Under the pieces are notes generated by a model. That model did not search any database, was not told the DNA's origin, and saw nothing but the letters and a program-made list of their open reading frames with translations. Positions 8,435 through 16,238 of a stretch of DNA of 51,812 nt are shown one piece after another. Made by a program: the position numbers and the translations under genes. Source of the stretch: Bacteroidota bacterium (GTDB lineage: Bacteria; Bacteroidota; Ignavibacteria; Kapaibacteriales; UBA2268); contig SCSM01000025.1 of assembly GCA_004322215.1 (NCBI GenBank), forward strand, positions 1-51,812, written 5' to 3'. Numbering within the stretch: the stretch's first letter is position 1; each line of letters starts with the position of its first letter.

Positions 8435-9193
8435 ATGCTTAAAACAAGAGTAATCCCATGCCTTCTTCTTAAGGATGGAGGATTTGTCAAAACTATTAAT
8501 TTCTCCAAACCGGGCTATCTTGGTGACCCGCGGAATATTGTTCGGCTTTTCAATGAGAAAGAAGTAGATGAAATTGTCATTCTCGATATTGAGGCAACGA
8601 GAAAAAAAAGAGAGCCATATTTTGAACTTCTTAAAGATATTGTTAGCGAAGCATTCATGCCGATTGCTTATGGCGGTGGTATTAAAACAATTGATGATAT
8701 TAAACAACTTTATAAAATAGGTATTGAAAAAGTTGTAATTAATTCACAATCTGTAAAAAGCCCGGAGTTCATAAAGGATGCATCCGATAGATTCGGTAGT
8801 CAGAGTATTGTTGTTTCAATTGACGTAAAGAAAAATTTGTTCGGAAAATTTAACGTTTATATCGAATCAGCAAGAAAAAACAGTAAACTTTCTCCAAACG
8901 AACATGCAAAGAGAATGGAAGAGTTCGGTGCAGGTGAAATCATTTTGAATTCGATAGACAAAGACGGAATGATGGAAGGATATGACCTTAAAATGATTAA
9001 TACGGTAGCTTCTGCAGTTTCGATTCCTGTTATTGCACTCGGCGGTGCAGGAAAATTGGAACATTTTCGTGATGCGGTGAATGCAGGTGCTTCTGCGGTT
9101 TCTGCTGGTAGTATGTTTGTGTATCAGGGTATACACAAGGCGGTGCTTATTAATTACCCGGCACAGGAAGAATTGAAGGAATATTTGTTTTGA
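8435..9193 (+). CDS. HisF2/WbuZ-like cyclase homologue for sugar amidination
   Basis: This 252-residue (beta/alpha)8 barrel aligns with HisF over its length, but its neighbours are surface-sugar genes, not histidine genes. It starts MLKTRVIPCLLLKDG; an upstream in-frame ATG at 8372 would add an unrelated tail. By recalled Thermotoga HisF numbering, the catalytic Asp11 is Leu11 here, Asp130 is kept (IVVSID), and the ammonia-gate residues Arg5, Glu46, Lys99 and Glu167 (here 168) are all present. This fits the HisF2/WbuZ family, which passes ammonia from a HisH-type glutaminase to a WbpG-type amidotransferase. No HisH gene is visible nearby. The stop nearly touches the next gene. Confidence 0.85.
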   Translation: MLKTRVIPCLLLKDGGFVKTINFSKPGYLGDPRNIVRLFNEKEVDEIVILDIEATRKKREPYFELLKDIVSEAFMPIAYGGGIKTIDDIKQLYKIGIEKVVINSQSVKSPEFIKDASDRFGSQSIVVSIDVKKNLFGKFNVYIESARKNSKLSPNEHAKRMEEFGAGEIILNSIDKDGMMEGYDLKMINTVASAVSIPVIALGGAGKLEHFRDAVNAGASAVSAGSMFVYQGIHKAVLINYPAQEELKEYLF

Positions 9194-9198
9194 ACAAT

Positions 9199-10359
9199 AT
9201 GAGAACATATCAGATATGTACTCGCTGCGTAATGGACACAAGCGACACCGGTATAATATTTGATGAATATGGTGTTTGCAGTCATTGCCATCATTATGAT
9301 TCATTTTATAAAAATATTGCTCCTTTCAATTTATCAACCGGAAAAAGAGAAGAAGTACTAAAAAGTATTATTGATGATATAAAATCTAAAGGACACAATA
9401 GGAAATACGATTGCATAATCGGAGTGAGCGGAGGTGTTGACAGTTCTTATACGGCATACAAGATTAAGCAGTTTGGGTTGAATCCTCTTGCTGTACATCT
9501 TGACAATGGGTGGGATTCAGAATATGCAGTTAAAAATATCGAATCTTTAGTAAAAAAATTAAATATTGACTTATACACTCACGTTATTGACTGGAGTGAA
9601 TTCCGTGATTTGCAAAAAGCATTTTTCAAATCCTCGATTATTGATATTGAAATTCTCACGGACCATGCGATATTTGCTGTTATTTATCAGCTTGCAAAAA
9701 AACATGGAATCAGGTATTTCATAAGCGGCATTAATTATGCAAGTGAATCTACAATGCCTGATTCCTGGTACAGTGGTTCAAAATTGGATGCAGGGCTCAT
9801 TAAATCAATAAACAAAAAGTTCGGTTCAAATAAGAAGCTGAAATCCTTCCCAATGATTAGTTTTATGACATTTTTAAGAAATTTTCCCGGATTGAACCGA
9901 TTTGATATATTAAATTATTTAGAATACGACTATCAGAAAGCAAAGCGACTCCTTATCGAGGAACTTGGCTGGATAGATTATGGATTGAAACATTACGAAT
10001 CTGTATTCACCCGATTTTACCAGGGATATATACTTCCGGAAAAATTCGGAATTGACAAAAGAAGGGCTCATTTATCCAGTCTGATTTATTCCGGTCAGAT
10101 GACAAGAGAGAATGCTTTAGCTAAATTGGAACAGGAAAAATATGACTCTGAACTTTTACGACAAGACAAGGAATTTTTCTTAAAGAAACTGGATTTCAGC
10201 CGAGAGGAATTTGATAAATACATACATAAACATGGCTGGACTCATACTAATTACAATTCTTACACAAGAATGTTGGAGGAAAATGATGTGTTGAAGTTTA
10301 TTGTCAAAACTGCTGCATTAATAAAAAAACCCTTTAACAAATTATTCAAATTATCCTAA
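9199..10359 (+). CDS. N-acetyl sugar amidotransferase (WbpG/WbuX-like)
   Basis: This 386-residue protein begins MRTYQICTRCVMDTSDTG, the usual start of the family, with two Cys pairs (CTRC and CSHC) that probably bind a metal. Residues 70-90 hold the ATP-pyrophosphatase PP-loop (GVSGGVDSSYTAYK). Family members adenylate a sugar acetamido group and replace its oxygen with ammonia, giving an acetamidino group; P. aeruginosa WbpG and Campylobacter PseA are examples. A TTG three codons upstream (9190), overlapping the previous stop, is an alternative start. The adjacent HisF2-like gene supplies half of the expected ammonia donor. The exact sugar substrate is inferred from the WbpB/D/E-like genes downstream. 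Confidence 0.85.
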   Translation: MRTYQICTRCVMDTSDTGIIFDEYGVCSHCHHYDSFYKNIAPFNLSTGKREEVLKSIIDDIKSKGHNRKYDCIIGVSGGVDSSYTAYKIKQFGLNPLAVHLDNGWDSEYAVKNIESLVKKLNIDLYTHVIDWSEFRDLQKAFFKSSIIDIEILTDHAIFAVIYQLAKKHGIRYFISGINYASESTMPDSWYSGSKLDAGLIKSINKKFGSNKKLKSFPMISFMTFLRNFPGLNRFDILNYLEYDYQKAKRLLIEELGWIDYGLKHYESVFTRFYQGYILPEKFGIDKRRAHLSSLIYSGQMTRENALAKLEQEKYDSELLRQDKEFFLKKLDFSREEFDKYIHKHGWTHTNYNSYTRMLEENDVLKFIVKTAALIKKPFNKLFKLS

Positions 10360-10402: not shown

Positions 10403-11260
10403 ATGACTCTTATTAATGTAATATGTTATTATTGCGGTTCGAGCAGGAGCAGCCACTTCGATTCCGAAAACGGATTTAATATTGTTAAATGTGATTCATG
10501 TGGTTTGCTTTATGTCAATCCCCGCCCTTCGGATGACGACATTGCAAATGGTGCAGAAACCGGATTACACAAGGGTGAACAGACACTCGACCTGACCGGC
10601 ACATTCAATGATGAACAAGTGCAGCGATTCAATAATATAATTAATAAAATTTATGGGAAAAATGTTCCTGCTGAAAATTCTTCGTGGTTAGATATTGGTT
10701 GTGGGCATGGTGAGTTCATGACAGCACTAAAAGTGAAATTTGAAAACAAATTGATTTTGAAGGGATGTGAACCGAATAGTGCTAAGGTTGAATCCGCATT
10801 AAGTAAGGGACTCGATGTAGAAGCGTTTTATCCGGAAGAACATAGTGAATCTTATGATTATGTCTCTTTGCTGAATGTTTATTCTCATTTGACAAATCCT
10901 TTAAATTCGCTGAACAATTGGAAAAAACTTGTAAAACCTGGTGGTGAACTTTTACTTGAAACCGGGGATACAACAGATTTGACTAAAGAAACAATTGCAA
11001 AACCATATTATCTCCCCGACCATCTTAGCTTTGCTACAAAGAATATCGTTATTGATATTCTTAAAAGAGTTGGATTTGAAATTCTCAAAATTCATTATTT
11101 TCGTCATCAGGGAATTCCTGAATTGAATATTGTCAATGTTCCTTATGATATCAAAGAGACGATAACCGGTAAGAAGAATATTAAAGAATTGAAAAAATAT
11201 ACAAAAAAATATTCACATCGGGATATGTGGGTTAGAGCAAGGAGAATTGATAATGGATAA
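10403..11260 (+). CDS. Class I SAM-dependent methyltransferase with zinc ribbon
   Basis: This 285-residue protein has an N-terminal zinc-ribbon-like segment (CYYCGSS ... KCDSCGLLYVNPRP) followed by a Rossmann-type methyltransferase core. The SAM-binding motif I is 'WLDIGCGHGEFM' near residue 97, and the post-core motif is 'LVKPGGELLLET'. Proteins of this layout are common in capsule, O-antigen and flagellar glycan clusters, where they methylate a sugar or a sugar carrier. Its place between the amidation genes and the uronic-acid genes suggests it modifies the same glycan, but the acceptor is not known. Confidence 0.8.
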   Translation: MTLINVICYYCGSSRSSHFDSENGFNIVKCDSCGLLYVNPRPSDDDIANGAETGLHKGEQTLDLTGTFNDEQVQRFNNIINKIYGKNVPAENSSWLDIGCGHGEFMTALKVKFENKLILKGCEPNSAKVESALSKGLDVEAFYPEEHSESYDYVSLLNVYSHLTNPLNSLNNWKKLVKPGGELLLETGDTTDLTKETIAKPYYLPDHLSFATKNIVIDILKRVGFEILKIHYFRHQGIPELNIVNVPYDIKETITGKKNIKELKKYTKKYSHRDMWVRARRIDNG

Positions 11261-11325: not shown

Positions 11326-11386
11326 ACTTCAAGTTTTACGAAAAGACGCGAAGAATTCACAAAGAAATCAAAGTTTGAAATTTGTA

Positions 11387-12397
11387 ATGAACAAAATAAT
11401 TAGATTTGGAATAATAGGTTGTGGTCGCATTGGGACTCGCCATGCTGAGAGAATTGCACAGAATTCAAGGGCAGAACTTGTCTCGTTATGCGATATAAAG
11501 CAGGATAGAATAGATGAACTGAAAAATAATTACAAAGTAGAATCATTTTTTAATTATCATGATTTGTTGAAAAATGATAATATTGATGTTGTTTCAATTT
11601 GCACTCCAAACGGATTACATTCCGAAATGAGTATAGCAGCAGCCAATTCCGGCAAACATATACTCTGCGAAAAGCCGATGACGATTAAAGTTGATGATGG
11701 TAAGAAAATGATTGAAGCTGCTGAAAAAAACAATGTCAACCTTTTTGTTGTTAAGCAAAACAGGTATAATCCCCCTGTTGCAAAGGTGAAAGAAATAATT
11801 GATAATGGAATTCTCGGCAAAATTTACATGCTTGTAGTAAATGTTTATTGGAATCGCGGGGCAGATTATTACTCCGAATCCGAGTGGAAAGGCAGATTAG
11901 CACTTGACGGCGGAACACTATATACACAGGTTAGCCATTTCATTGACCTTATGCTTTGGTACGGCGGCGATTTTAAAAATGTTGAAATTATTGGCAAAAG
12001 AAATAAACATCAGATTGAATTTGAAGACAATGGGGTCATTCTCGCCGAATTTGAAAACGGTGCCATTGGCTCTGTCAATTATACAGTGTGTACTGAAAAA
12101 GAAAACATGGAGGGCTCTATTACAGTTATTGCTGAACATGGAACGGTAAAAATAGGTGGTCAATATCTGAATACACTCGAATACGAAAAAATAAAAAATT
12201 ATAAAATTCCTGAACTGGAGCCATCGAGACCTGCAAACGATTATGGAAGGTATCAGGGTTCAATGTCCAACCATGCTCAGGTCATTCAAAATGTAATTGA
12301 TGTTCTTCAAAATAACGGCAAGCAGCATGTAACGGCAACTGAAGCTCTCAAAACAGTTGAATTTATTGAACATTGCTATAAGAAAATGAAGGTGTAA
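11387..12397 (+). CDS. Gfo/Idh/MocA oxidoreductase (WbpB-like)
   Basis: This 336-residue protein has an N-terminal NAD(P)-binding Rossmann fold (IRFGIIGCGRIGTRHAERIA) and the family's 'HILCEKPM' motif near residue 95, followed by the C-terminal alpha/beta substrate domain. In the Wbp pathway, WbpB oxidises the 3-hydroxyl of UDP-GlcNAcA so that WbpE can aminate it. I assign that role by synteny with the acyltransferase and aminotransferase immediately downstream. An in-frame TTG at 11375 is a weaker start than the ATG at 11387. The gene is followed by the acyltransferase after one base. Confidence 0.85.
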   Translation: MNKIIRFGIIGCGRIGTRHAERIAQNSRAELVSLCDIKQDRIDELKNNYKVESFFNYHDLLKNDNIDVVSICTPNGLHSEMSIAAANSGKHILCEKPMTIKVDDGKKMIEAAEKNNVNLFVVKQNRYNPPVAKVKEIIDNGILGKIYMLVVNVYWNRGADYYSESEWKGRLALDGGTLYTQVSHFIDLMLWYGGDFKNVEIIGKRNKHQIEFEDNGVILAEFENGAIGSVNYTVCTEKENMEGSITVIAEHGTVKIGGQYLNTLEYEKIKNYKIPELEPSRPANDYGRYQGSMSNHAQVIQNVIDVLQNNGKQHVTATEALKTVEFIEHCYKKMKV

Positions 12398-12398
12398 A

Positions 12399-12995
12399 AT
12401 GATTTCAAAGACGGCTATAATTCATCCGAATGTTAAGCTTGGAGAAAATGTAATCATCGAGGACTTCTGTATAATCGGTTCTCCTTTCAAAGATTATAAT
12501 AATGAAGAAACTTTTATCGGTGACAATGCTCTAATACGCTCCCACACTGTGATTTATGCAGGGAATAAAATAGGTAATAATTTCCAGACAGGGAATAAAG
12601 CAAACATCAGGGAACTGAATATAATCGGTGATAATGTTAGCATAGGTACTTTAAGTGTAGTCGAACATCATGTAGTAATTGAAGATGATGTAAGAATACA
12701 CACTCAGGCATTCATACCGGAATATTCAATTTTAAAGAAAAACAGCTGGATTGGTCCAAAAGTCGCAATGACAAATGCAAAGTATCCTAAACATCCCGAA
12801 GCCAAGAAAGGATTACTGGGACCAACGATTGAAGAAAATGCAAAAATTGGTGCAAATGCCACTATCATGCCCGGAATAACAATTGGGAAAAATTCATTAA
12901 TTGGTGCCGGCAGTGTTGTTACTAAGGATGTTCCTGAAAATGTTGTGGCTGTCGGTAATCCGGCTCAAATTCTTAGCACTATACATTATGAGTGA
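12399..12995 (+). CDS. Hexapeptide-repeat acyltransferase (WbpD-like)
   Basis: This 198-residue protein is a left-handed beta-helix built of hexapeptide repeats (I.P.VKLGENVIIED, GDNVSIG, IGANATIMPGITIGKNSLIGAGSVVTKDV). The family uses acetyl-CoA; in the Wbp pathway WbpD N-acetylates the 3-amino sugar. The start is one base after the WbpB-like stop. The end overlaps the aminotransferase start by eight bases (ATGAGTGA), indicating translational coupling. Acceptor specificity is inferred from the neighbours, since hexapeptide acyltransferases also act on many other sugars. Confidence 0.85.
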   Translation: MISKTAIIHPNVKLGENVIIEDFCIIGSPFKDYNNEETFIGDNALIRSHTVIYAGNKIGNNFQTGNKANIRELNIIGDNVSIGTLSVVEHHVVIEDDVRIHTQAFIPEYSILKKNSWIGPKVAMTNAKYPKHPEAKKGLLGPTIEENAKIGANATIMPGITIGKNSLIGAGSVVTKDVPENVVAVGNPAQILSTIHYE

Positions 12996-14106
12996 TATGA
13001 TAAAGTTTGTTGATTTAAGTAAGCAGTATGATAGTATCAAATCCGAAATTGATGATGCAATATCGTCAGTTATTTCAGAAACTGAATTTGTAGGTGGTAA
13101 AAATGTTCGGTCTTTCGCCGATGAATTTGCGAAGTATCTCGGTATTAAGCATTGCATAACTTGCGCTAACGGAACAGATGCAATCGAAATCGCTCTCAAA
13201 TCACTTGGTATTGGCAAAGGAGATGAAGTTATCGTTCCTTCACACACCTGGATTTCAACATCTGAGGCAGTTACAATGACTGGTGCAAAACCTGTCTTTG
13301 TTGATACTTTATCTTACTATTATACAATCAACCCCCGGGAAATTGAAAATCATATAACCGGGAGAACTAAAGCAATAATTCCGGTTCATCTGTTCGGGCT
13401 GCCTGCCGACATGGATTCTATAATGATGATTGCAAAAAAATATAAATTATTTGTCCTTGAGGACTGTGCCCAGGCACACGGAGCTAAAATTGACGGGAAA
13501 TTGGTCGGAACATTTGGCGATATTGCAACTTTCAGCTTTTATCCGAGTAAAAACCTGGGTGCTTATGGTGATGCCGGCTGCATTGTTACAAATAATGATG
13601 AATTATCTGAGAAAACTAAATTGATTGCAAATCATGGACAGTTAATAAAACATGAACATAAAATCGAAGGCAGGAACAGTCGCATGGATGGTCTGCAGGC
13701 AGCTATACTTTCAGCAAAACTTAAATATCTGAATGATTGGAATGAAAAAAGAATTAACAATGCAAAATTGTATAATGAATATCTGAAAGATATTTCGCAG
13801 GTAAGAACACCTTCAACAATCGAGGGATTCACTCATGTTTATTATGTATATTGTATTAAAACATTGGACAGGGAAAATCTGAGGGAGTTTTTAAACTCGA
13901 AAGGCATCGAAACAACAATTCATTATCCGAGGATGTTGCCGATGCTCGATGCTTACAACTATATCAATCAATCACCCGGTGAATTCAAAATATCTTATGA
14001 ATACCAGCCATATATTTTATCACTGCCAATGTATCCTGAATTAGCCGAAGAGGAAATTAATTACATTTGCGATACCATTAGAGAATTTTATTCATTGAAA
14101 GTATAA
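12988..14106 (+). CDS. DegT/DnrJ/EryC1 sugar aminotransferase (WbpE-like)
   Basis: This 372-residue PLP enzyme carries the family landmarks: 'GTDAIEIALKSLGIGKGDEVIVPSHTW', 'VLEDCAQAHGA' (PLP-ring Asp) and 'FSFYPSKNLGAYGDAG', in which Lys188 should form the Schiff base. WbpE transfers an amino group, usually from glutamate, to the 3-keto uronic acid made by WbpB. The chosen ATG at 12988 overlaps the acyltransferase stop; an ATG at 12997 (MIKFVDL) is also possible. Longer readings upstream run through the acyltransferase gene and have no family similarity. Confidence 0.88.
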   Translation: MSDMIKFVDLSKQYDSIKSEIDDAISSVISETEFVGGKNVRSFADEFAKYLGIKHCITCANGTDAIEIALKSLGIGKGDEVIVPSHTWISTSEAVTMTGAKPVFVDTLSYYYTINPREIENHITGRTKAIIPVHLFGLPADMDSIMMIAKKYKLFVLEDCAQAHGAKIDGKLVGTFGDIATFSFYPSKNLGAYGDAGCIVTNNDELSEKTKLIANHGQLIKHEHKIEGRNSRMDGLQAAILSAKLKYLNDWNEKRINNAKLYNEYLKDISQVRTPSTIEGFTHVYYVYCIKTLDRENLREFLNSKGIETTIHYPRMLPMLDAYNYINQSPGEFKISYEYQPYILSLPMYPELAEEEINYICDTIREFYSLKV

Positions 14107-14118
14107 GGATGAATTGAA

Positions 14119-15261
14119 ATGAATAAAATCAGGTTGTTCAAAGCTGGTGAAATTTACCCGCGATATTTGGAATACTTCTACAAAAATGTACCTGATGCAA
14201 TAAAACTGCCATACAAAGAACATCTTGCTAAAATTATGTCAGACAGCTTCTATTGGGCTGACTTCTGGAAAGTCAATCTCGAACAAACCGGGAATTTCAC
14301 TGTTGAAGAGACATTACCGAATAATAGGTTTTTACAAAACCAATGGGCAAAAGAACATTCTTTAACCGTTTCAGAAGACAATTGGTTCTATGAAATACTC
14401 GATGCTCAGATTGCAGAATTTAAGCCGGATATTTTTTTTACGAATGAATTTCAGATCAAGCCGGAATATAAAGTTGAAATCAAAAAGAAGCATCCTTCGA
14501 TTAAGATTATTATTGGCTGGGACGGCATTATGAGAAATGATAAAAATTTATTCCAGGGATGTGATGTTGTTCTATCTTGTGTTCAGGAAAGTGTTGATTA
14601 TTATAATGCAAATGAATTCAAGGGCTATTATTTCATCTTTGGTTTTGAACCGGAAATATTGAATAGAATAAAACTAAGGCAGCCGATATTTGAATCTACT
14701 TTTGTCGGTTCTCTCTATTCATGGGGACATTCTCAAAGATTACGTCTTGTAGCTGAATTATCGAGAAAAGCACCCTTTAAAATCTGGGCTTCATCCTTTG
14801 CTCCTACTGATAAAAAAGGTTATATGACGGAACAACTTTCGAGAATAAGAAGAGGAAAATTCAAAGATTTGAGGGATGTCGACAGAATTAGAAAAGTCAA
14901 CCAGGGTGAAGCATTCGGATTAAAGATGTATCAGATTCTTGCAGATTCAAAAATCACAATCAATTCCCATATTGATTTTGCAGGTAACAAAGCTGCCAAC
15001 ATCCGATTGTTCGAGGCAACCGGTGTAGGTGCATGTCTATTGACAGATTGGAAAGAAAATCTAAGTGATTTTTTTGAAATTGATAAAGAAGTCGTAGTTT
15101 ATAAATCTATTGATGATTGTATAGATAAAGTGAAATTCCTTTTGGAACATGATTCGGAAAGAAATTCAATTGCAAAATCCGGACAGGAAAGAACACTAAA
15201 AGATTATAATCTGGAAAAACGATTCGGTAAATTTGCAGATTATTTATTTGGTTTATTATAA
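14119..15261 (+). CDS. CgeB-like family glycosyltransferase
   Basis: This 380-residue protein has no signal peptide. Residues 280-380 carry the C-terminal glycosyltransferase signature (MYQILADSKITINSH, NIRLFEATGVGACLLTDWKENL, and a trailing helix 'SGQERTLKDYNLEKRF'), as in GT-B enzymes of the CgeB/Glyco_trans_1_2 type. The N-terminal half should bind the acceptor. It probably transfers one sugar in the glycan made by this cluster, in the cytoplasm. The gene follows the aminotransferase by 12 bases and precedes the next transferase by two, so they are one transcription unit. Confidence 0.8.
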   Translation: MNKIRLFKAGEIYPRYLEYFYKNVPDAIKLPYKEHLAKIMSDSFYWADFWKVNLEQTGNFTVEETLPNNRFLQNQWAKEHSLTVSEDNWFYEILDAQIAEFKPDIFFTNEFQIKPEYKVEIKKKHPSIKIIIGWDGIMRNDKNLFQGCDVVLSCVQESVDYYNANEFKGYYFIFGFEPEILNRIKLRQPIFESTFVGSLYSWGHSQRLRLVAELSRKAPFKIWASSFAPTDKKGYMTEQLSRIRRGKFKDLRDVDRIRKVNQGEAFGLKMYQILADSKITINSHIDFAGNKAANIRLFEATGVGACLLTDWKENLSDFFEIDKEVVVYKSIDDCIDKVKFLLEHDSERNSIAKSGQERTLKDYNLEKRFGKFADYLFGLL

Positions 15262-15263
15262 TT

Positions 15264-16238
15264 ATGATAAAAGATAATATCGGTGTAGCAATTATTACTA
15301 AAGATGCCGAAGAAAGCATTGGACCTGCAATTAGGTCAGTTATCCCTGTTACAAAACAAATCGTTGTGGTTGACACCGGCTCGACAGATAAAACTCCTTC
15401 TATTGCCACACGGCTCGGTGCTGATGTATATTTCAGAAAATGGGATGACAATTTTTCAAATGCACGAAATCATGCACTGGGATTTATTCGAACCGAATGG
15501 ATTTTATCGCTTGACTCTGATGAAACTCTCGATTTTGATTCATTCAAAAAAAATATCAATTTATTAAATCAGGAAAAAACCGGTGGTGTTCAAGTCAAAA
15601 TTTTAAATTATCTCAAACCGGATGATAAATCTTATCAAACCGAACATTCCTATACCCGAATTTTCAGAAATCATCCCAAAATCCGTTTTGAAGGCAGTAT
15701 TCACGAGCAAATTAATAATTCGATCATCTCTGCCGGTTTCGAAATCGAAGAAAGTGATATTATATTAAATCATTACGGATATATAAATACCACTCCTGAA
15801 AAAATCAACAGAAATAAAGAATTACTCGAAGACGAACTTGACCGCAAACCGGATGATGAGTGGTATAAATACCACCTTGCCGAAACCGAGTTTGCCTCAG
15901 GAAATATTTCTAAAGCAAAGGAATTATTTGAATCCATTATTTTTTCAGAACAATTAACACAAGAACAGAAAGAGAAATCGTGTATCCGGCTTTCTCAAAT
16001 TGCTCTGAAAAATAATTTATACTCTGAAGTCGAAAAATGGCTTGGATTCAAAAGTGATAATATTCATACAGAAGGTTTCAGGAAATTTATCCTGGCAACA
16101 TCATTAATGCTGCAGCAAAAATTTGATGATGCTTCGAATCTCTTAGATTCAGTCGAGGTTAAAAATTCATCGCTTGTGGACCCTGTTAATCTCAATCGGG
16201 CTTATGATGTTATAAATACTATTAAAAAAATGAAATAA
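15264..16238 (+). CDS. Family 2 glycosyltransferase with C-terminal TPR-like region
   Basis: Residues 1-110 form a GT-A fold: 'GVAIITKDAEESIGPAIRSV', the nucleotide-binding 'VVVDTGSTDKT', and the DxD motif in 'ILSLDSDETLD' (metal and sugar-nucleotide binding). Residues 150-324 are helical with TPR-like spacing (WYKYHLAETEFASGNISKAKELFESI). GT2 enzymes with such tails are known to glycosylate lipids, peptides or proteins; which applies here is not clear. It lies two bases after the previous transferase. Confidence 0.85.
   Translation: MIKDNIGVAIITKDAEESIGPAIRSVIPVTKQIVVVDTGSTDKTPSIATRLGADVYFRKWDDNFSNARNHALGFIRTEWILSLDSDETLDFDSFKKNINLLNQEKTGGVQVKILNYLKPDDKSYQTEHSYTRIFRNHPKIRFEGSIHEQINNSIISAGFEIEESDIILNHYGYINTTPEKINRNKELLEDELDRKPDDEWYKYHLAETEFASGNISKAKELFESIIFSEQLTQEQKEKSCIRLSQIALKNNLYSEVEKWLGFKSDNIHTEGFRKFILATSLMLQQKFDDASNLLDSVEVKNSSLVDPVNLNRAYDVINTIKKMK

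Follow-up and report, generated by a model that had tools for sequence, protein, structure and literature searches.

The window analysed here, the whole 51,812-nucleotide stretch of a Bacteroidota contig (SCSM01000025.1), carries on its forward strand a HisF-like barrel gene followed by the genes listed in Table 1. The barrel scores 360.6 bits against the AglZ_HisF2_fam profile NF038364 (cut-off 310) and narrowly passes the WbuZ profile TIGR03572 (306 bits, cut-off 299.7), while staying below the cut-off of the hisF profile TIGR00735 (232.8 against 294.55 bits). An AF2 model of the protein (mean pLDDT 92.6, 31 sequences) has HisF 1h5y_B as its top structural match (Z 33.9, rmsd 2.1 over 241) and matches Thermotoga HisF 1gpw_A with a Z of 32.5 at 38% identity. 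On these profile scores the gene is an HisF2 of the AglZ/WbuZ type, a family already known.

Directly downstream lies a WbuX/WbpG-type amidotransferase gene whose first ATG is at 9199, the mechanical open reading frame beginning at a TTG at 9190. Its PP-loop (SGGVDS) and tetracysteine motif (CxxC...GxCxxC), as defined in the text available for PMC10607449, are intact. Of the 46 HisF2 genes compared below, 45 have a WbuX gene no more than 3 kb away. The genes further downstream resemble a WbpB/D/E-type pathway leading to a 3-acetamido sugar.

Table 1. Genes of the acetamidino-sugar cluster and residues of its barrel (positions in the window)
Feature	Position	Strand	Basis or remark
HisF2 (AglZ/HisF2, WbuZ family) barrel	8435-9193	+	252 aa, ATG start, TGA stop
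Arg5, ammonia gate	8447-8449	+	codon read directly
Leu11 replacing HisF general acid Asp11	8465-8467	+	codon read directly, alignment
Thr20 replacing loop-1 Gly20	8492-8494	+	codon 20
Glu46, ammonia gate	8570-8572	+	codon read directly
Glu98 replacing HisF Asp98, contact to HisH	8726-8728	+	codon 98
Lys99, ammonia gate	8729-8731	+	codon read directly
Asp130	8822-8824	+	codon read directly
Glu168 (Tm 167), ammonia gate	8936-8938	+	codon read directly
WbuX/WbpG-type N-acetyl sugar amidotransferase	9199-10359	+	TIGR03573 309.5 bits, cut-off 203.2
SAM methyltransferase-like, same cluster	10403-11260	+	PF13489 56.4 bits; order kept in G090, G091, G092
Gfo/Idh-type oxidoreductase, probably WbpB-like from its cluster	11375-12397	+	NF040723 (UDP-GlcNAc 3-dehydrogenase) 146.8, below cut-off 450
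Hexapeptide acyltransferase, probably WbpD-like from its cluster	12399-12995	+	PF00132
DegT/DnrJ aminotransferase, probably WbpE-like from its cluster	12988-14106	+	PF01041 374 bits; start picked by eye
Glycosyltransferase-like	14119-15261	+	PF13524; order kept in genus
Glycosyltransferase-like, SunS-like below cut-off	15264-16238	+	order kept in genus

Alignment of the barrel with HisF-LUCA runs without a gap to about residue 132, placing Leu11 opposite the Asp and matching Arg5, and shows an offset of one thereafter, such that residue 168 is Thermotoga (Tm) residue 167. Residues Arg5, Glu46, Lys99 and Glu168, presumably the ammonia gate formed by R5/E46/K99/E167 in HisF, are all present, as is Asp130, while L11, T20, N172 and L202 stand in place of Asp11, Gly20, Thr171 and Ser201 of HisF. 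These readings bear out the initial annotation, which had reported a leucine for Asp11 beside an intact Asp130 and gate and had equated residue 168 with Glu167; the alignment puts no Asp at position 11. Thermotoga HisF uses D11 as general acid and D130 as general base (PMC11350729; Asp11 also in PMC8115485), and a G20A substitution lowers its kcat about 100-fold (PMC11350729).

For comparison, 46 HisF2 sequences were assembled from 34 genes over the cut-off, five from a survey of the order and seven plasmid genes, the last chosen by BLAST and annotation rather than by HMM score from among the 40 listed of 93 matching plasmid records; two duplicates were removed and the near-copy H3 was left out. 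They were set against 51 HisF sequences, comprising 40 rows below the cut-off, hand-chosen among the matches listed and assigned to HisF by their score rather than by adjacent his genes, and 11 from other loci, with the short row L151 dropped. Position 11 is Asp in 51/51 HisF and Leu (43), Gln (2) or Thr (1) in HisF2, and position 20 is Gly in 51/51 HisF and Thr (40) or Ser (6) in HisF2. Position 172 (Tm 171), Thr in 51/51 HisF, is Asn in 36 HisF2, Thr in five and other residues in five; position 202 (Tm 201), Ser in 51/51 HisF, is Leu in 25, Cys in eight, Ile in four, Ala and His in three each, and Ser, Asn and Val in one each. The gate, complete at all four positions in 51/51 HisF, persists in HisF2 as Arg5 in 45 (with one gap) and Glu46, Lys99 and Glu168 in 46/46. 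Also retained are D130 (45/46), K19 (46/46), F23 (45/46), D177 (42, with E177 in the other four) and the phosphate-site residues G204 (46/46) and S226 (45/46), and position 103 varies (Asn 24, Ser 19). In the tree, HisF2 forms a single clade (100/100) and HisF a separate one (97/83). Two HisF, L144 and L148, which lie outside the count of 51, also have Asp11 and Asp98, and a scan of the genome contigs gave seven loci, of which the two above 35% identity both have Asp11.

Since Asp11 loss and gate retention are family-wide, neither is peculiar to this gene: judged from the alignment, the loss of Asp11 marks the known HisF2 family and is no special lesion here. The family-wide replacement of cyclase residues, taken with the roles of D11 and G20 in Thermotoga, implies that HisF2 should not be an imidazole glycerol phosphate (IGP) cyclase, and such activity is not expected of the family. 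The initial annotation had proposed ammonia delivery without cyclase chemistry. Its residues, a likely cyclase loss (to which T20, N172 and L202 now add) and a partner encoded elsewhere stand; there is no support for the loss of Asp11 as a notable trait of this one gene, Asp11 being absent from 46/46 HisF2, or for a need of another entry route for ammonia.

That no HisH lies nearby, as had been stated, is upheld by BLAST of the genome's HisH protein against window frames of at least 50 aa, which gave nothing at E<=1. The genome (G000; 4.2 Mb, 47 contigs, 96.7% complete) contains a sole HisH over the TIGR01855 cut-off of 105.4, at G000:C5:33553-34158 on another contig, scoring 230.3-230.9 bits and matching PF00117, in agreement with the first of the two alternatives offered by the initial annotation. 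The catalytic triad Cys80, His186 and Glu188 is intact, and Asn11, Trp124 and Lys189 are present, which by their motifs we take to correspond to N12, W123 and K181 of Thermotoga; the Asn so equated with hN12 is invariant in 42/42 HisH2. Complete absence of HisH2 from the genome and a copy hidden in the window were both considered and rejected, the former by the C5 gene and the latter by the empty BLAST. The split between HisF2 and HisH2 is not attributed to an assembly break either, the HisH2 gene lying at 33.6 kb of a 251-kb contig. In G090 and G091 the two genes are likewise apart and far from contig ends; weaker cases are G048, with contigs of about 5 kb, and G092, whose HisH is a contig-end fragment. 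The C5 HisH gene overlaps by a few bases a neighbouring 378-aa gene with no NCBIfam or Pfam match, and a gene of this type stands beside HisH in G000, G090, G091 and G048.

Among the his genes covered in the 96.7% complete genome, ordinary HisF, HisD and IGPD (HisB) were not found, the only others covered being HisH and a HisA-like barrel. The latter is a lone, weak match (G000:C34:53733-54425, L004:1492-2241; 111 bits, below the HisA cut-off) adjoining a RuvA gene.

HisH2 lies within 1.8 kb of 39/46 HisF2 genes, the seven exceptions being the four of this genus, that of G048, and a single one of the paired HisF2 copies of G147 and likewise of G342. In these last two genomes the only HisH2 of the fetched stretches is about 13-14 kb from the exceptional HisF2. 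The stretches from G147:C1 and G342:C99 (L137-L140) each hold two HisF2 types, three WbuX and one HisH2, and one HisF2 of each pair carries Glu177 and His202. Across the 123 genomes of the order, HisF2 passes the cut-off in six, namely G048, G085 and the four members of this genus. Each of the six carries a HisH over cut-off, adjoining HisF2 in G085 and on another contig in the other five; HisH over cut-off occurs in 18/19 genomes with WbuX versus 2/104 without. Within family f1, the 7/54 genomes with a HisH over cut-off are the same seven with a HisF-type match above 150 bits (p 5.6e-9 by genome and 5.7e-5 by genus, from hand-entered counts uncorrected for kinship), the seventh, G050, having a barrel of the D11/E130/E177 kind. 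In the HisH tree, the four HisH2 encoded at a distance group together (99/92) and, with five HisH2 of HisF2 clusters, make up a branch of nine rows (99/95), apart from the HisH of his-like gene rows; some branches are long and canonical HisH are scattered.

The data presented above have led us to propose, with a probability of roughly 0.77, that HisF2 and the HisH2 encoded in trans on C5 deliver glutamine-derived ammonia to the adjacent WbuX for acetamidino formation. Because the two genes are unlinked here, we infer their pairing. Glutamine would be hydrolysed in HisH2, the ammonia would pass through the Arg5/Glu46/Lys99/Glu168 gate and the barrel to a WbuX/WbpG-type PP-loop enzyme presumably docked on it, and WbuX would turn the N-acetyl group of its probable sugar substrate into an acetamidino group. 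Less surely, a fixed Glu98 would keep HisH2 active now that the barrel is without PRFAR chemistry.

Other WbuX loci bear on how general such an arrangement is. All four genomes of the genus encode another WbuX that passes the cut-off and shares about 29% identity with the first where the two align. Here it is at G000:C2:50481-51518 (L094:9482-10606), between a NeuB-like gene (376.4 bits, below the cut-off of 399.65) and a NeuC gene (416.1 bits, cut-off 235.9), and no HisF2 or HisH2 occurs within about 9 kb of it in the 19.9-kb stretch covered. A cytidylyltransferase-like gene follows the NeuB-like, WbuX and NeuC genes. This setting recalls Legionella ORF28, a PtmG homologue to which PMC3766260 attributes the formation of acetamidino-modified CMP-legionaminic acid. 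A WbuX over cut-off is likewise present on a 4-kb contig of G069 (G069:C297:1749-2738, L106; 234 bits), although in this genome no HisH passes the cut-off and HisF-type matches stay at or below about 34 bits; WbuX therefore need not always have these partners. At G039:C59 and G050:C326, two WbuX accompany a single barrel and a single HisH. Two amidotransferases may thus be supplied by one glutaminase pair.

Two further HisF barrels beside HisH and WbuX (L105:2991-3839 and L143:3123-3968) keep Asp11 and have Glu at 130 and 177; from the residues, their cyclase site seems to have been altered by a different route. On a 141-kb IMG/VR contig (IMGVR_UViG_3300025769_012879; L201:4378-9989), HisH2 (230.1 bits), HisF2 (323.4) and WbuX (221.3) are consecutive and all over cut-off. 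The HisF2 has L11 and E98, and hexapeptide, epimerase and DegT-family genes follow WbuX. This stretch is a putative acetamidino-sugar cassette on a contig whose viral status is that assigned by the collection.

Position 98 adds a second family-wide feature. It is Glu in 46/46 HisF2, down to 40% identity with the barrel described here, and Asp in 51/51 HisF, in rows drawn mainly from one phylum, beyond which the pattern rests on few rows. Thirteen below-cut-off barrels from WbuX-bearing genomes, not all of them observed beside WbuX or HisH, retain Asp98 without exception (position 11 is Gln in eight, Leu in three and Asp with E130 and E177 in two), and Glu98 is thus no requirement for such a role. 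When the Thermotoga complex is active, D98 has shifted toward HisH and meets hN12, a residue that in turn contacts the triad member hE180 (PMC8115485). The engineered D98E protein is called hyperactive in the same source: its turnover rises upon activation, with a kcat of 179 per min, and the equilibrium shifts to the active form (49% versus under 5% during turnover), values measured with ProFAR present and not ligand-free (PMC8115485). A literature search for HisF with D98E returned PMC8115485 only, and no paper on Glu98 in HisF2 was noticed among the matches listed in the literature searches; most subscription literature lay outside the search and novelty is therefore unproven, yet as far as searched the fixation of Glu98 in HisF2 appears new.

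Together these residues suggest that the barrel was released from its cyclase task and adapted to hold the glutaminase in an active state. A wider proposal, which we advance tentatively and with the odds some way against it, is that HisF2 are natural "unlocked" glutaminase activators: when it departed from histidine synthesis, the barrel would have shed cyclase residues (Asp11 and Gly20 without exception, Thr171 and Ser201 with few) and fixed Glu98. HisH2 would then work without PRFAR, and the ammonia acceptor would be a separate WbuX docked on the face that was once catalytic. The present lineage would also have moved its glutaminase gene out of the cluster, and both WbuX may be supplied by one pair. 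The chances that Glu98 is instead a mere variation of the interface, specific to HisF2 and without activating effect, are only slightly below even. It is one fixed change on one branch, Asp98 is kept in 13/13 of the below-cut-off barrels, and the effect of D98E was reported upon ProFAR activation (PMC8115485); against neutrality, Glu98 is conserved despite the divergence of HisF2, and so is the partner Asn in HisH2.

The role of the barrel itself may be broader than that of a conduit. Retention of K19, F23, D130, D177 or E177, G204 and S226 means that it may still bind a ligand, and on this account HisF2 would bind a phosphorylated compound, perhaps a nucleotide sugar, and act on it or sense it via D130/D177, gating HisH2. 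K19 and loop 1 of HisF touch ProFAR, and the fF23A variant is less active (PMC8115485). However, Asp11 and Gly20 are replaced throughout HisF2, Thr171 in 41/46 and Ser201 in 45/46, position 103 is not constant, and K19A hardly lowers HisF cyclase activity (PMC11350729), and we regard such a function as unlikely, though far from negligible. Much less probable is a WbuX that uses free ammonium, with HisF2 and the remote HisH2 not its suppliers: the unlinked HisH2, the WbuX of G069 and the second WbuX here would fit, and HisF itself takes ammonium salts at basic pH (PMC11350729), but the adjacency of HisF2 and WbuX, the tight HisH/HisF profile and the intact HisH triad speak for supply by the pair. 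A histidine-pathway HisF in decay, or moonlighting, whose Asp11 disappeared only lately in this lineage would agree with the absence of the his genes searched for, but is hardly credible and was rejected: the change is family-wide, the tree places it on the stem of the well-supported HisF2 clade, members of that clade are present as well in genomes such as G406 and G367, which have HisH-HisA-HisF-like gene rows, and the gene is kept in the genus at 79-80% identity.

Delivery of HisH2-derived ammonia through HisF2 to WbuX would address a question, the nitrogen source of acetamidino sugars, that seems little studied. The main text of the one NASAT structure paper found (PMC10607449) nowhere mentions HisF, HisH, glutamine or a channel, and a search combining HisF2, ammonia and amidotransferase found no paper, with most subscription literature outside its reach. 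HisF-HisH serves as a model system for allostery. If true, a natural family minus the cyclase and plus a hyperactivating residue would be an evolutionary test of glutaminase uncoupling and recoupling to a new substrate; two points deserve follow-up, namely Glu98 in combination with the lost cyclase residues, and the separate location of HisH2.

Among known proteins, the engineered T. maritima HisF D98E bears the same residue 98, although there it was introduced by design and Asp11 and the PRFAR-driven cyclase were kept (PMC8115485). Thermotoga HisF (1gpw/1thf) shares with the present barrel the fold, the gate R5/E46/K99/E167, D130, K19 and F23, whereas here Asp11, Gly20, Thr171 and Ser201 are lost, Glu98 replaces Asp98 and the score falls below the hisF cut-off; unlike for the HisF cyclase of imidazole glycerol phosphate synthase, no HisD or IGPD was found in this genome. 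With the AglZ/HisF2 (NF038364) and WbuZ (TIGR03572) families the barrel has in common the WbuX neighbour, Leu11 (43/46), Glu98 (46/46) and the gate, but its HisH2 is at a separate locus, as in the four close relatives G090, G091, G092 and G048. A WbuX gene alongside and a HisH2 somewhere in the genome, both present here, are customary for NF038364 members without strictly defining them. WbpG-HisH2-HisF2 of the Pseudomonas O antigen and AglX/Y/Z of Methanococcus have a three-part arrangement with a presumed acetamidino product and a linked partner. The same three parts occur in this genome, with the partner unlinked.
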